From contig JAVLRN010000003.1 of assembly GCA_032821775.1 (NCBI GenBank), positions 434,001 to 498,000 on the forward strand: 64,000 nt of DNA, in the 5' to 3' direction. The notes below the pieces were generated by a model, which saw nothing but the letters and a program-made list of their open reading frames with translations, was not told where the DNA came from and did no database searches. The DNA is from Sanguinoderma infundibulare (lineage: Eukaryota > Basidiomycota > Agaricomycetes > Polyporales > Polyporaceae). The number at the start of each line of letters is the position of its first letter. Position 1 is the first letter of the stretch. The position numbers were made by a program, and so were the translations under genes. Shown one piece after another: positions 19,632 to 35,338 of this stretch.

Positions 19632-20095
19632 CATCAGGAAAACCCTCCCAAGCTAATTCAATGCATTTAGTACAAATATGATCTAATGGAGCTACTATCA
19701 ATCTAATTTGATCTAATTCGGCCATCTGAGTACTAACATTGTACTAACATGCAGGGACATCTTTATAATTGTAATAATATGCACTATCATCTCAGAGAGG
19801 AACAGCAGTTGTACTACTTAGTACTACTTTTGCACTACTTCAGACCTATTTTCATGTATTGGGACAATCAAAACACTCTGGTATGATTGGGTGTGTTGAC
19901 ATCACATTCTGCATTATTTACAGCACAAACAACAGTGAGGAATGGCATCATAAACCACAATATGTAATGACAGCAACAAACATGAACTACAACATGCATA
20001 GATCACACATATTGAGATAAAGAAGAACACAAGCTGACACTTCTATGCGCAAGGCAAGGGGGGAGGAGGGAGAATGAGCACAGTGCAGCGGAGGG
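19632..20095. repeat. Left arm shared by both TIR transposon copies
   Basis: About 460 bp nearly the same as 31293-31755, starting with the TIR and rich in CTAATTTGATCTAATT-like subterminal motifs. It has no coding potential I can support. Confidence 0.75.
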
Positions 20096-20153
20096 TAAGC
20101 GAAGTAGCCCTGTGCGGGTTTAAAGTTGTAGTTGTCGACAGAAGGGAGCTGGA

Positions 20154-20570
20154 TCATGCTGCGCACACGAGGGATCCAGCCGGCACCTGCGTGGTCCTCT
20201 GCGGGGTGGGGAGACATTGATGGATGTTGAGATGGTTGCTCGGATAGAGGTCTGCTGAGGTGGCAGGTGGGAATGTCAAAAGGACAGGGCGACGGCGACG
20301 AGGACGCCACAGCTGATGGCCCTCAGAGAAGGAGTGGCGGCGGGCAGATGATGGAGAGCAAGGGCGAGGGGACTGAATGTAAATACTCACCACCATATGA
20401 TCTCCGCCCACACCCACGCCCGATCCTCCTCATTATCGTCCTCTTCATCCTCCACAGCCTCGCTGTCGCCCCCCTCCTGCGCATCATGTTGTCCCGCTGC
20501 CCGCAGATGGTCGCACATTGTGGATACGCGGCAGGTGACTGGCCCTCGGAGATGGTCCATGGAGAAGGAA
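20154..20570 (-). other. Unidentified exon-like pieces in TIR copy 1
   Basis: Minus-strand open stretches: a strongly acidic one (EGGDSEAVEDEEDDNEEDRA, near 20410-20500) ending at a GTGAGT-like donor near 20396, and a basic one (RRHSFSEGHQLWRPRRRRP) with PPATSADLYPSN after it. They may be further captured exons. I do not recognise the source genes. Confidence 0.3.
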
Positions 20571-20749
20571 GGTGTCAGGGCGAGTAGACAGCAGCGGAGG
20601 ACGTGAAGAGCAAGGAAGGGCAATCGGACGTTGCGGGCAATGACAGAGAGGAAGCATTGATGGATGGGCCCTTGGGGATGGACTGCTGAGAGGGAAGGAG
20701 CTGCTGCATCTGGAGAAGACAAATGGCATAAGGTGGGATGAGAACTTAC

Positions 20750-21140
20750 CTTTGTGCCAGTCAACACAATCTTGCCGGACACAAAGATCAGAAGTACGAC
20801 CTTCAGCTTGATCATGTGGTAGATCAAACCAGGGAGAAGCTCAAAGGACGCTCACTTAGCAATGACGACAGCAGACATGAAAGGGTCACCAAATGCACCT
20901 CAGGCTCATACGAACTGAACTGTCCGTGGCTGTACACTAGACCCTCGAGACGAATAGGGAACTTGACATCGCACGAGCCGAAGATGTTCTGGATCTTGAA
21001 CTCGGAGAATTTTGCGTCGAACCCGAGCTTCTAGACTTGCACGAAGCAAGCTGCGAGTCGTCCTCGGACTTTGCACCCGTCACAACCATCTTGCCTGTAA
21101 ATGAGCGCAGTCATCTTTGGGTTGCGGATATGCAGTGGAG
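20750..21140 (-). pseudogene. Captured TATA-binding protein (TBP) fragment
   Basis: TBP binds the TATA box as part of TFIID. Minus-strand pieces match the conserved C-terminal core in order: [69 protein letters not shown], then after an intron-like gap [28 protein letters not shown] and a GTAAGT donor at 20749. Small deletions and frame changes interrupt it, and residues such as YARIIQ between the first pieces are missing, so it is a pseudogene. Keeping intron positions points to capture from genomic DNA, not mRNA. It faces left, away from the central palindrome. Confidence 0.85.
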
Positions 21141-21225
21141 AGACGACGCAGGACAGGCTGCGGGGGATTCTAAAGACGATCGGACGAGGATGGCAACGGG
21201 GTGGGTGGGAAGAGAGACGAGGAGA

Positions 21226-21301
21226 GTTGGAAGTGTTAGACGCTCGATTCAGTGGCGCCACAGGCGACGTGCCACCGAATCGAGCGTCTAACACTTCCAA
21301 C
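21226..21301. repeat. Central palindrome of TIR copy 1
   Basis: Perfect 25-bp inverted arms (21226-21250 and 21277-21301) around 26 nt containing GTGGCGCCACAGGC. The counterpart in copy 2 is at 33082-33154. Captured genes diverge from it in both copies. Confidence 0.85.
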
Positions 21302-21400
21302 TTTCCTCCCACTCGCCACATCGTCTCTCTCCTCTCGAGTGCATCCATGCCCGAGGCATCCCACCCTCCTCACCATCTGACGACGACGACGACGTCTGCC

Positions 21401-33154: not shown

Positions 33155-33186
33155 TCTCCTCATCTCTTCTCCCACTCGCTACATCG

Positions 33187-33463
33187 CCATTCAACCAAAA
33201 GGTGCTATGGACCGCCATCACGCTCCTCATCTTTCTCATCTGCTCCCAGGTCCCCCTGTATGGCATCATGTCCTCAGACTCGGCAGATCCCCTCTACTGG
33301 GTGCATGTCATCCTCGCCTCGAACTGTGTCACGCTCATGGAGCTCAGCATCACGCCCATCATCACTTCTGGCATGATCATCCAGCTTTTGGCCAGTGCAA
33401 ACTTGATTCAGGTCGACCTCTCACTCAAAGAGGACTGCGCACTGTTTAGTGGGGCTCAGAAAT
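33187..33463 (+). pseudogene. Captured Sec61 alpha exon
   Basis: Sec61 alpha is the channel subunit of the ER protein translocon. The exon reads [90 protein letters not shown] and ends at a GTGAGT donor at 33464. This is the N-terminal region covering the plug and the first transmembrane helices. Conserved residues are changed (Arg to Cys in NCVTL and EDCAL, Gly to Ser in ELSIT), consistent with relaxed selection and CpG loss. No later Sec61 exons were found. Confidence 0.9.
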
Positions 33464-33756
33464 GTGAGTGGTGCACTTTCTCTCAGCTGCATCCCTCGTA
33501 ACCACACCCAAGGCATCGCAGTTTGCTGCCCAGGCGTCCCCCACCTTGTCCAAAAACACCCTCACCACAAACACGACCTGGCCATCCCCAACTCCTCATC
33601 CTTGTTGTCTTCCACCATCTCCTCCACCATCATCCCCACTCTCACACACCATAAGTCCTGTTTGCTCCTTGTCTCCCCTCCGATGCTCTCTGATTGTGTG
33701 CACTGCTACTTGCTGCTCTCAGTTATGGCTTTCTTCTAGTTCCCTAGACCCTCGCC

Positions 33757-34326
33757 ATGGCCCTCAATTGCATCAACAAGGTATGCCTCATTCTTCATCA
33801 TCTGTGCCCTGTAGCTCTTGTCTGCCCAAATGTGATGGTGGGCTGTGCTAGCACACATCTCCTAGCAATCTCCCATTACTGACATCTACCTTTCTTACAT
33901 ATCCTTTGGCTGGCATGCATCCCTTTGCAACTTCTAGAAGTTGATTGATCTAGGCTGCAACCCTCCCTCTTCATGCAGTGCAGGTCTGACAGGTGATAAC
34001 ATGTTCCAGTGGCAGGCAATGATCATGGGACCTGTACATTATCTCTCCTTCCTCTTTCTCTCCAGCATTCTCTGCACGAGTGCACTCAGGATCTGTGTCC
34101 GGCATAACTGATGTCACTCGTATGCCTTCTCGATTCGTTCTTCTCTCCAGGGTGACTCTCTTTATGCCAGCAGCATCTTCTTCCTCTCCATCACCTTTTC
34201 CATCAACTACGCCTTCAAGCCGTCCAAGGTCAGCTCCACCACCAAGATCTATCACCCGAACATCAACACCAATGGCTCGATCTGTCTTGATATCTTGAGG
34301 GATCAATAGAGTCCAGCATTGACCAT
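33757..34326 (+). pseudogene. Captured Ubc4/5-type ubiquitin-conjugating enzyme
   Basis: E2 enzymes carry ubiquitin on a cysteine. Three exons are visible: 33757-33780 (MALNCINK, then GTATGC), 33938-34033 ([32 protein letters not shown], then GT) and 34151-34326 ([50 protein letters not shown], stop, SPALTM). The active-site Cys (GSICLDIL) is present. The invariant Trp after RDQ is TAG, a TGG to TAG change. Introns of about 157 and 117 nt remain, so the capture was of genomic DNA. The last part of the E2 is missing. Confidence 0.88.
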
Positions 34327-34339
34327 GAACGGTGCATGC

Positions 34340-34488
34340 TAGCTTCACCTCTCCATGGCTTGTACTTTTTCCACACTGATGGACTCGCTGTCAGGGTCCA
34401 GATTCGGCAAGTTCAAAACAGACACCCAGTCGATCTTCGAATGCATGGCCCGTGCCTGTACGAAAGGTGTCTCGGTCACTTCGGCTGT
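34340..34488 (+). other. Unidentified piece between E2 and MDH cargo
   Basis: Plus-strand open stretch [33 protein letters not shown] just before the MDH part. It may belong to another captured gene; not recognised. Confidence 0.25.
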
Positions 34489-34990
34489 CGTTGACCCACA
34501 TCCTCATCATTTCCAACCCTGTCAACTCCACCATCCCCATCCTTTCTGCAGTCTTCGAGAAGGCCGGTGTTTGTGACCCTGCTCACATCTTCAGTGTTAC
34601 CACCCTTGATGTCGTCCACTTCCTTAGCAGCATCACCGGTGCTGACCCCAAGGACATCCCCATCACCATCATTGGTGGTCACTCAGATGCGACCATTGTC
34701 CCTCTCCTTTCTCAGACCCTGCACAGCAAGGGTGTCTCGGGCGAGGTCTACAAAAAGCTCATGCACTGCATCCAGTTCAGTGGTGATGAGGTTGTCCAGG
34801 CCAAAGAGGGTGCTGGCTCCACAACACTCTCCATGGCCTACGCTGGTGCTCGCTTCACTGGCAACCTGCTCCATGCACTCAATGGCGAGAAGGGGATTGT
34901 TGTCCCTACATTCTTCGAGAGCCCTCTCTTTGCTGATCAGGGCATTGAATACTGCTCCTTTAACATTGAACTTAGCTACGGCAATGTATT
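34489..34990 (+). pseudogene. Captured malate dehydrogenase fragment, copy 2
   Basis: C-terminal two thirds of MDH in one frame: [147 protein letters not shown]. The NPVNS and GGHS motifs of the active site are kept, but the substrate Arg after LDVV is His. It is more complete than copy 1, which lacks the [11 protein letters not shown] segment. The Rossmann N-terminus is absent, so it cannot be an active enzyme. Confidence 0.88.
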
Positions 34991-35338
34991 AGTCTTGCTC
35001 AATATACACTTTTGATGTCTATGTTCTATGTGGTGTGCGCAAGTTTTGGACAGCCCAGCAAATCTCTGAGATACTGAACCTATAGTCCTGGATTAGCAAC
35101 CATTAGGAAGGATTAGGAAAAAATTAGCACTACTGTAGGGAAGGGTTAGAGAAGGATTAGGGCCAGTAGTGCTACTTTATCCCTAATCCTTCTAAGATAG
35201 AACAAGGGAAAAGGGGGACCTACCGAATCTTAGGCTAATTTTCCCTAACTCACTAATGCTTTTCTAATGGCACTAATTCCTACTTTTTAGTTGTACTTTC
35301 ACGGTTCACCAAAGTAGCTTGGGAAGGTTTTTCCAGAG
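34991..35338. repeat. Right arm of TIR copy 2
   Basis: ATTAGG/CCTAAT-rich subterminal repeats and the right TIR. Matches 22797-23118. Confidence 0.7.

Follow-up and report, generated by a model that had tools for sequence, protein, structure and literature searches.

We analysed a stretch of 64,000 nucleotides (the window) from the polypore Sanguinoderma infundibulare (Basidiomycota; assembly GCA_032821775.1, contig JAVLRN010000003.1, positions 434,001 to 498,000 of the forward strand). It contains two non-autonomous elements bounded by terminal inverted repeats (TIRs), with interiors assembled from pieces of host genes (Table 1). An earlier note on this DNA had described both as Pack-type transposons with common terminal arms, a common central palindrome and a common malate dehydrogenase (MDH) piece, which a repeat comparison and Pfam confirmed. 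Its coordinates for element 2 (31293-35338) are exact, and element 1 ends at 23116, two bases before the 23118 given there. The left parts of the two elements (19632-20097 and 31293-31753) are 84-91% identical in ungapped families; the same range applies to the right parts (22640-23116 and 34835-35338), with ~75% identity across the gapped right arm. The TIRs are imperfect: the left one reads CATCAGGAAAACCCTCCCAAGCTAATT and the right one, read inward, CTCTGGAAAAACC(T/C)... Two features had been overlooked: each left arm is followed by pieces derived from the gene at C3:1464-1466 kb, and element 2 consists of host DNA in its left half too, from three further donors.

Table 1. Features of the two elements in the window. 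TSD, target-site duplication; percentages are identities to the donor locus.
Feature	Position	Strand	Remarks
Element 1 (Pack-type, non-autonomous)	19632-23116	+	3485 bp; matching 2-bp TSD absent at this copy
Left TIR and left arm, element 1	19632-20031	+	
Pieces of host gene C3:1464-1466 kb	20032-20244	-	sense leftward; 20032-20097 and 20095-20244; extra piece 20648-20703
TBP gene piece	20703-21134	-	donor C5:2973393-2973842, 86%
Central palindrome, element 1	21219-21308	no strand	
MDH, 5' part	21361-21519	+	donor C3:885154-885312, 88%
uL1 piece	21512-21992	+	donor C12:591560-592040, 94%, without gaps of 12 nt or more; inside MDH piece
MDH, 3' part	21992-22781	+	donor C3:885409-886269
Right arm and right TIR, element 1	22782-23116	+	
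Element 2 (Pack-type, non-autonomous)	31293-35338	+	4046 bp; TSD CA/CA
Left TIR and left arm, element 2	31293-31687	+	
Piece of C3:1464-1466 kb gene, element 2	31688-31849	-	73%
Unnamed host gene piece	31853-32145	-	donor C2:3233374-3233667, 87%
Unnamed host gene piece with hydrophobic stretch	32145-32426	-	donor C7:2983444-2983741, 81%
Unnamed host gene piece	32487-33093	-	donor C2:3766696-3767387, 84-90%; one 76-nt GT-AG intron precisely missing
Central palindrome, element 2	33082-33161	no strand	
Sec61 alpha piece	33187-33479	+	best donor match C2:4203570-4203862, 91%
E2 ubiquitin-conjugating enzyme piece (taken as Ubc4/5-like)	33592-34326	+	donor C2:3698119-3698953, 88-92%
Unnamed host gene piece	34327-34496	+	donor C4:509300-509469, 90%; sense call weak
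MDH piece, element 2	34495-34976	+	right junction (donor base 1370 of L050) identical to element 1
Right arm and right TIR, element 2	34977-35338	+	

The two elements belong to a family that is dispersed over the genome. With up to 3 mismatches allowed, the left TIR occurs at 70 sites and the right TIR at 72 sites in 48.9 Mb; chance is excluded because reversed-pattern controls gave 0 matches for either end. Pairing of the ends by script, with one left end (C8:264854) added from BLAST, yielded 52 pairs spaced 2.7-5.1 kb. We read 32 copies, 28 of them first and in full and 4 later as a held-out test. Two of the 28, C2_2104 and C6_3330, lie outside the 52 pairs because their right ends are altered or cut. 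A matching 2-bp duplication flanks 22 of the 27 copies with both ends, and a 3-bp match none (0/27); when flanks were shuffled among copies, the 2-bp match averaged 3.35 and reached at most 11 in 20,000 shuffles. Three of the four held-out copies carry the duplication as well, which brings the count to 25/31 (C6_3330, with its right end cut, is excluded). The left terminus is CATCA in 31/32 copies (CATCT in C17_268), and the right terminus is CCAGAG in 26, CTAGAG in 3, TCAGAG in 2 and cut in C6_3330. Element 1 has a near-twin at C9:2436317-2439801, 97.5% identical over 3485 bp and set in different flanks, so the family has moved together with its cargo. Two more pairs with the same cargo are 92.5% and 99.1% identical. 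A left end at C10:655513-659550 has two right ends next to it, both on the strand opposite to its own, a rearranged or nested copy.

We sought donors for the interiors of four copies and fetched 21 donor loci. Pieces and donors are 70-98% identical, and 27 of the 28 copies match at least one of the 21 loci. Since the donors remain in place, capture works by copying. The pieces of element 2 derive from eight separate donor loci and several of them abut; in the BLAST alignments, neighbouring pieces touch or have up to 9 bases in common, and some short gaps have no assigned donor. A native gene cluster was rejected because the donors lie at separate loci. Both observations on which the earlier note had made its capture model depend, arms that recur elsewhere and cargo genes that do not lie together in the host, thus support a Pack-type interpretation.

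The cargo named in that note (TBP and uL1 in one element, Sec61 alpha and an E2 enzyme in the other) was recovered by Pfam and by donor matches. In element 1, Pfam detects TBP on the minus strand, Ldh_1_N/Ldh_1_C and ribosomal L1, the last in two frames at 31.4 and 32.0 bits, slightly below the curated 32.2; the identity of uL1 is also backed by the match to its donor locus (94% over 481 bp). In element 2, the families are Sec61 plug, UQ_con and Ldh_1_C. A PDB comparison identifies the Ldh donor as malate dehydrogenase (best E 1e-57). Pfam assigns the E2 piece to the E2 family only, and we take it to be Ubc4/5-like. Among ten donor open reading frames (ORFs) searched with Pfam, nine gave no family and the tenth two sub-threshold membrane-segment matches. 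From its hydrophobic stretch, we would read the donor gene at C7:2983444-2983741 as encoding a single-pass membrane protein. The Sec61 piece matches four loci at 90-91% (C2:4203570, C7:896339, C13:513457 and C7:2472248), all outside the listed TIR pairs; they are host paralogues or further captures. One sequence of copy C4_383 (query 2769-3115) occurs in at least 11 places outside elements, among the matches listed all in C3:531183-951105 (40 of 97 candidates scored), and is perhaps a repeat confined to this 420-kb chromosome stretch.

Newer pieces of cargo sit inside older ones. In element 1, uL1 replaces about 100 bp of MDH, and copies C9_2440 and C13_649 hold that MDH uninterrupted. C4_383 provides two cases: a cyclin piece has displaced about 120 bp of a Tudor-knot gene, and a piece of the C10:60k gene about 140 bp of the C2:695k gene; C19_130 holds the latter gene without a break. 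Copy C14_214 has a 661-bp piece from donor C7:1038k (96% identity) between two C3:1464k pieces. The right border of MDH falls at donor base 1370 in 6/6 MDH-bearing copies read, which indicates one old capture that was later altered in different lineages. Such layered cargo is the trace expected of repeated gap repair inside an element and not of the fusion of neighbouring elements. The latter is the published model for plant Pack-TYPE elements (PMC8903248, PMC13317346; statements on cited papers, here and below, refer to the parts available to us): two insertions land close to each other, their outer ends transpose, and the chromosomal DNA between them is carried along and then trimmed. Neighbouring copies do occur, C9:2436317-2439801 and C9:2440319-2444528 being ~500 bp apart and three left ends lying within 4 kb on C12, and in copy C16_493 cargo lies between two palindromes, which recalls a fusion of two elements. 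However, this model does not account for eight donor loci in element 2 with several abutting pieces, nor for four cases of local replacement by a newer piece within an older one, and it does not predict the uniform sense of the cargo described below. We consider it unlikely as the main route.

By our own reading of frames and junctions, the uL1, MDH, E2 and Sec61 pieces retain introns or intron ends (uL1 two complete introns), so the claim that introns are kept stands for these genes. It fails for the C2:3766k piece, whose precise lack of one intron makes an RNA-derived capture possible for this piece. A more general version, in which the cargo was reverse-transcribed from host RNAs, would fit the exact loss of the intron in 3/3 copies found with this piece, and an RNA template would also yield a uniform sense; moreover, Pseudocercospora hAT elements have captured an intron-free histone H3 (PMC6710886). 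Against it stand the intron-bearing pieces just listed, and we regard reverse transcription as very unlikely to be the general source.

The central palindrome is present in 25/28 copies and in 4/4 held-out ones (29/32). In element 1 it has 38-nt arms that are 95% complementary and a 14-nt loop; folded as single-stranded DNA it reaches z = -10.0, and 0/200 shuffled sequences were equally stable. With up to 1 mismatch, 49 of 55 palindrome half-sites lie inside paired elements or three further TIR-marked stretches. The cargo reads outward from the palindrome on both sides: this holds for 17 of the 18 donors with both a sense call and a side (one-sided chance about 7e-5 by our own arithmetic) and for 7/7 Pfam-named donors. 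For each donor, the ORF with the best codon score gave the sense, which agrees with the Pfam frame in the element for seven genes; C2:695k and C4:509k are among the weak calls. The tally omits 3/21 donors lacking a sense call, the 3/28 copies lacking a palindrome and two pieces between the two palindromes of C16_493. A donor-independent measure gave the same picture: the sign of the pyrimidine skew flips at the palindrome in 25/25 copies and in 4/4 held-out ones, and the sense strand is pyrimidine-rich in 15/18 donors. We also considered a conserved start codon after the palindrome, where a CACCAYGCCCGAGGC-like motif occurs on the right side, and rejected it, the ATG matching in only 4/25 copies.

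The cargo has decayed. In 14 piece alignments, some of them from related copies, C-to-T and G-to-A changes account for 71% of the donor-to-element substitutions; of these 529 changes, 372 lie in CpG, a spectrum suggesting that the cargo is methylated and decaying. Frameshifting gaps (introns included) occur in 9/14 alignments and new stop codons in 6/14. Nonsynonymous to synonymous changes (N/S) amount to 0.72 of the context-matched neutral ratio (198:161 observed against 230.0:133.8 expected, ten pieces). Because constraint in the donor lineage alone can explain this mild depletion, we rejected protein-level selection on the cargo and claim no protein function for it.

What could have produced the outward rule? 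One possibility, which concerns only the cause of the rule and is compatible with gap repair, is selection: pieces would enter in either orientation, but antisense ones read from a central promoter would silence essential genes, and copies carrying them would be lost. Among the donors are genes that are usually essential, TBP, Sec61, uL1 and MDH; one inward donor survives (C2:695k), and the N/S value leaves little sign of selection at the protein level. On the other side, the unnamed donors follow the rule too, and the marked CpG decay points to elements that are methylated and may be silent. We therefore hold a selective origin of the rule to be somewhat less probable than its opposite.

The halves on either side of the palindrome assort separately. 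Among 300 pairs formed by 25 copies, 32 have half or more of one side in common but less than a quarter of the other, and 3 share both (the twins of element 1 count twice in this tally). Wherever a left half matches a right half, the match is inverted (60/60, 0 direct). The palindrome loop is reversed in 6 clear cases, and in 8 of 24 determined ones, from 26 palindromes. Exchange at the palindrome is the simplest reading of the half sharing together with the inverted matches across sides; a gene captured outward more than once would add to the same pattern. C10_306 carries another Sec61 piece on its left side, with different ends and again in outward sense; where both pieces can be compared with the donor, they have 3 derived differences in common, out of 6 in one and 8 in the other. 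They may go back to a common older capture that switched sides, or the donor may have been another Sec61 locus.

To find the mover, we searched the genome with the Pfam Plavaka model, which gave 40 matches, counted exon by exon. An element with the same TIRs at C2:730758-742807 (12.05 kb, both ends present, TSD GC/GC) holds Plavaka transposase exons (E 4.5e-81 and 3.9e-21). These exons read leftward, and other open frames, one with DUF6532, rightward. The ends of this element resemble those of the Pack copies over about 150-180 bp, and it also contains pieces of the C3:1464k gene and of a cyclin gene. Of the four strongest Plavaka matches, three are enclosed by these TIRs or lie 4-6 kb inward of a left TIR of this type; for the fourth, no such TIR is found among the listed sites. 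Pfam scans of 6 of the 32 read copies detected no transposase at E 0.01; they covered all six frames of element 1, C3_503, C16_493 and C4_383, the plus frames and left-half minus frames of element 2, and five of six frames of C14_214. C3_503, C16_493 and C14_214 gave no Pfam family in these scans. Most likely, Plavaka transposase is the mover of the Pack copies, with the transposase of same-TIR elements acting on them in trans. Its named relatives, among the best 120 listed, come from mushroom-type basidiomycetes, e.g. Trametes, Ganoderma and Mycena.

A 15.4-kb stretch (C14:367535-382990) was considered as an autonomous element and rejected: it is a Pack copy interrupted centrally by an apparent long terminal repeat (LTR) retrotransposon. 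This insert measures about 11 kb and lies close to the palindrome. In the window itself, the DNA between the two elements contains a decayed fragment of a Plavaka transposase (25996-26625, plus strand; Pfam E 2.6e-13; 3 TGA and 1 TAA internal). Element 2 lies within an array of short degenerate repeats with units of 26-50 nt, visible on either flank (31236-31288 and 35354-35572). Rfam and tRNA scans of the window returned no matches.

The ends and the target duplications also decide between transposon classes. Pack-CACTA elements have CACTA termini and 3-bp duplications, and Pack-MULEs duplications of about 9 bp. The copies described here begin with CATCA and never match over 3 bp (0/27), which separates them from Pack-CACTA; the same count means that no copy has a 9-bp duplication, and they are not Pack-MULEs either. 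Helitrons have neither TIRs nor target duplications, while these elements have both. Gene-capturing Helitrons of Pleurotus and maize are alike in being chimeras of host gene pieces, and the multi-gene, intron-bearing cargo resembles that of fungal Helitrons (PMC4289320); the TIRs at both ends, the 2-bp duplications and the Plavaka transposase between the same TIRs leave the Helitron explanation practically no weight. hAT elements make 8-bp duplications (PMC6710886), again at odds with 0/27. Helitron, hAT, MULE and CACTA were thus rejected on duplication length and ends. The remaining comparison is with the Plavaka elements of Agaricomycotina, for which PlavakaB termini CATCA..TGATG and duplications of 2 or 3 bp are described (PMC12730594). 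Transposase, left terminus and 2-bp duplication agree with these. Unlike PlavakaB, our copies have CCAGAG or a close variant of it at the right end and contain pieces of host genes, and none of the six scanned showed a transposase. Because left end and duplication match PlavakaB while the right end differs, we call the elements Plavaka-like and do not assign them to PlavakaB. We class them as Pack-type and Plavaka-like, distinct from Pack-MULE and Pack-CACTA alike; of the likeness to these two drawn in the earlier note, the Pack-type organization stands, and the 2-bp duplications and the same-TIR Plavaka transposase point to a different mover.

Taken together, these copies share TIRs and arms, are flanked by 2-bp duplications, carry cargo from separate loci that are still present and have a palindrome from which that cargo reads outward. 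The best explanation, to which we give a probability of roughly three in four, is that they are non-autonomous, gene-carrying TIR transposons with Plavaka-type mobilization, capture by gap repair and exchange at the palindrome. In such gap repair with template switching, a break or gap inside an element would be mended by copying an ectopic genomic template, and the copy would take the place of part of the element. The palindrome would act as an exchange point, so that halves recombine and can change sides, and would probably fire transcription both ways; antisense pieces would not be taken up or not be kept. What we infer here is how pieces are captured, that the palindrome serves as a promoter, and why the sense rule holds.

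Several observations weigh against this explanation or parts of it. Six of 31 copies lack a matching duplication, element 1 among them, and the PlavakaB right end TGATG is found in 0/32 copies. The palindrome was not found in 3/28 copies or in the 12-kb element, and its half-site pattern at up to 3 mismatches gives 143 sites compared with 40 for the reversed control. Because the copies share history, neither the half matches nor the skew flips are independent counts. Four of the donors and 12 long, unchecked ORFs of the window formed part of the training set for the codon score from which sense was called. C2:695k lies inward on the left in C4_383, C19_130 and C5_3668, and outward on the right once. 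The C2:3766k piece lacks exactly its 76-nt GT-AG intron in element 2 (site at window 32750-32753), C17_268 and C3_3602, the three copies found with it; this weighs against gap repair because copying genomic DNA does not predict the loss of an intron. Finally, the two-way transcription that the palindrome probably drives is argued from DNA sequence.

Capture of a host gene by a TIR element in fungi has a precedent with a single cargo gene, the transduplication of histone H3 by hAT elements in Dothideomycetes (PMC3538342, PMC6710886). There, too, a housekeeping gene is carried and amplified by a fungal TIR transposon, and the hAT copies in P. fijiensis have decayed by transition mutations (repeat-induced point mutation, RIP), like the cargo here. 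In contrast to that system, with one cargo gene, a hAT transposase and, in P. fijiensis, an 8-bp duplication and intron-free capture, the present family has many genes, a Plavaka mover, 2-bp duplications, mostly retained introns and decay at CpG. Plant Pack-TYPE elements (Pack-MULE, Pack-CACTA) are likewise non-autonomous TIR elements with host gene pieces, amplified with their cargo. Differences from these are the fungal host, the Plavaka-type mover, the 2-bp duplication, the palindrome, the two-sided outward sense and the exchange of halves; these six features are unmentioned in the available parts of PMC8903248 and PMC13317346, and the word fungi is absent from both main texts. For Plavaka, the available parts of PMC12730594 report gene capture for TET/JBP only, and those of PMC8290104 and PMC10799480 mention Plavaka TIRs and Pack-MULEs but not Plavaka Pack elements. 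Among the matches listed from the open-access literature, no Plavaka carrying host gene fragments beyond TET/JBP was found. What seems new is the two-sided, outward-reading architecture, which does not appear in the available parts of the Pack and Plavaka papers examined.

Gene collecting by TIR elements is well known in plants and little seen in fungi, and this family adds a fungal superfamily to the gene-shuffling transposons. Tentatively, and with somewhat less than even confidence, we picture a two-sided collector, in which the palindrome would serve as both two-way promoter and recombination hub, only pieces with outward sense would be accepted or kept, and the sides would be reshuffled and swapped to form new chimeric transcription units. 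A small genome here offers dozens of copies, identifiable donors, before-and-after pairs of capture and a clear orientation rule, and so lends itself to tests by comparison of strains.

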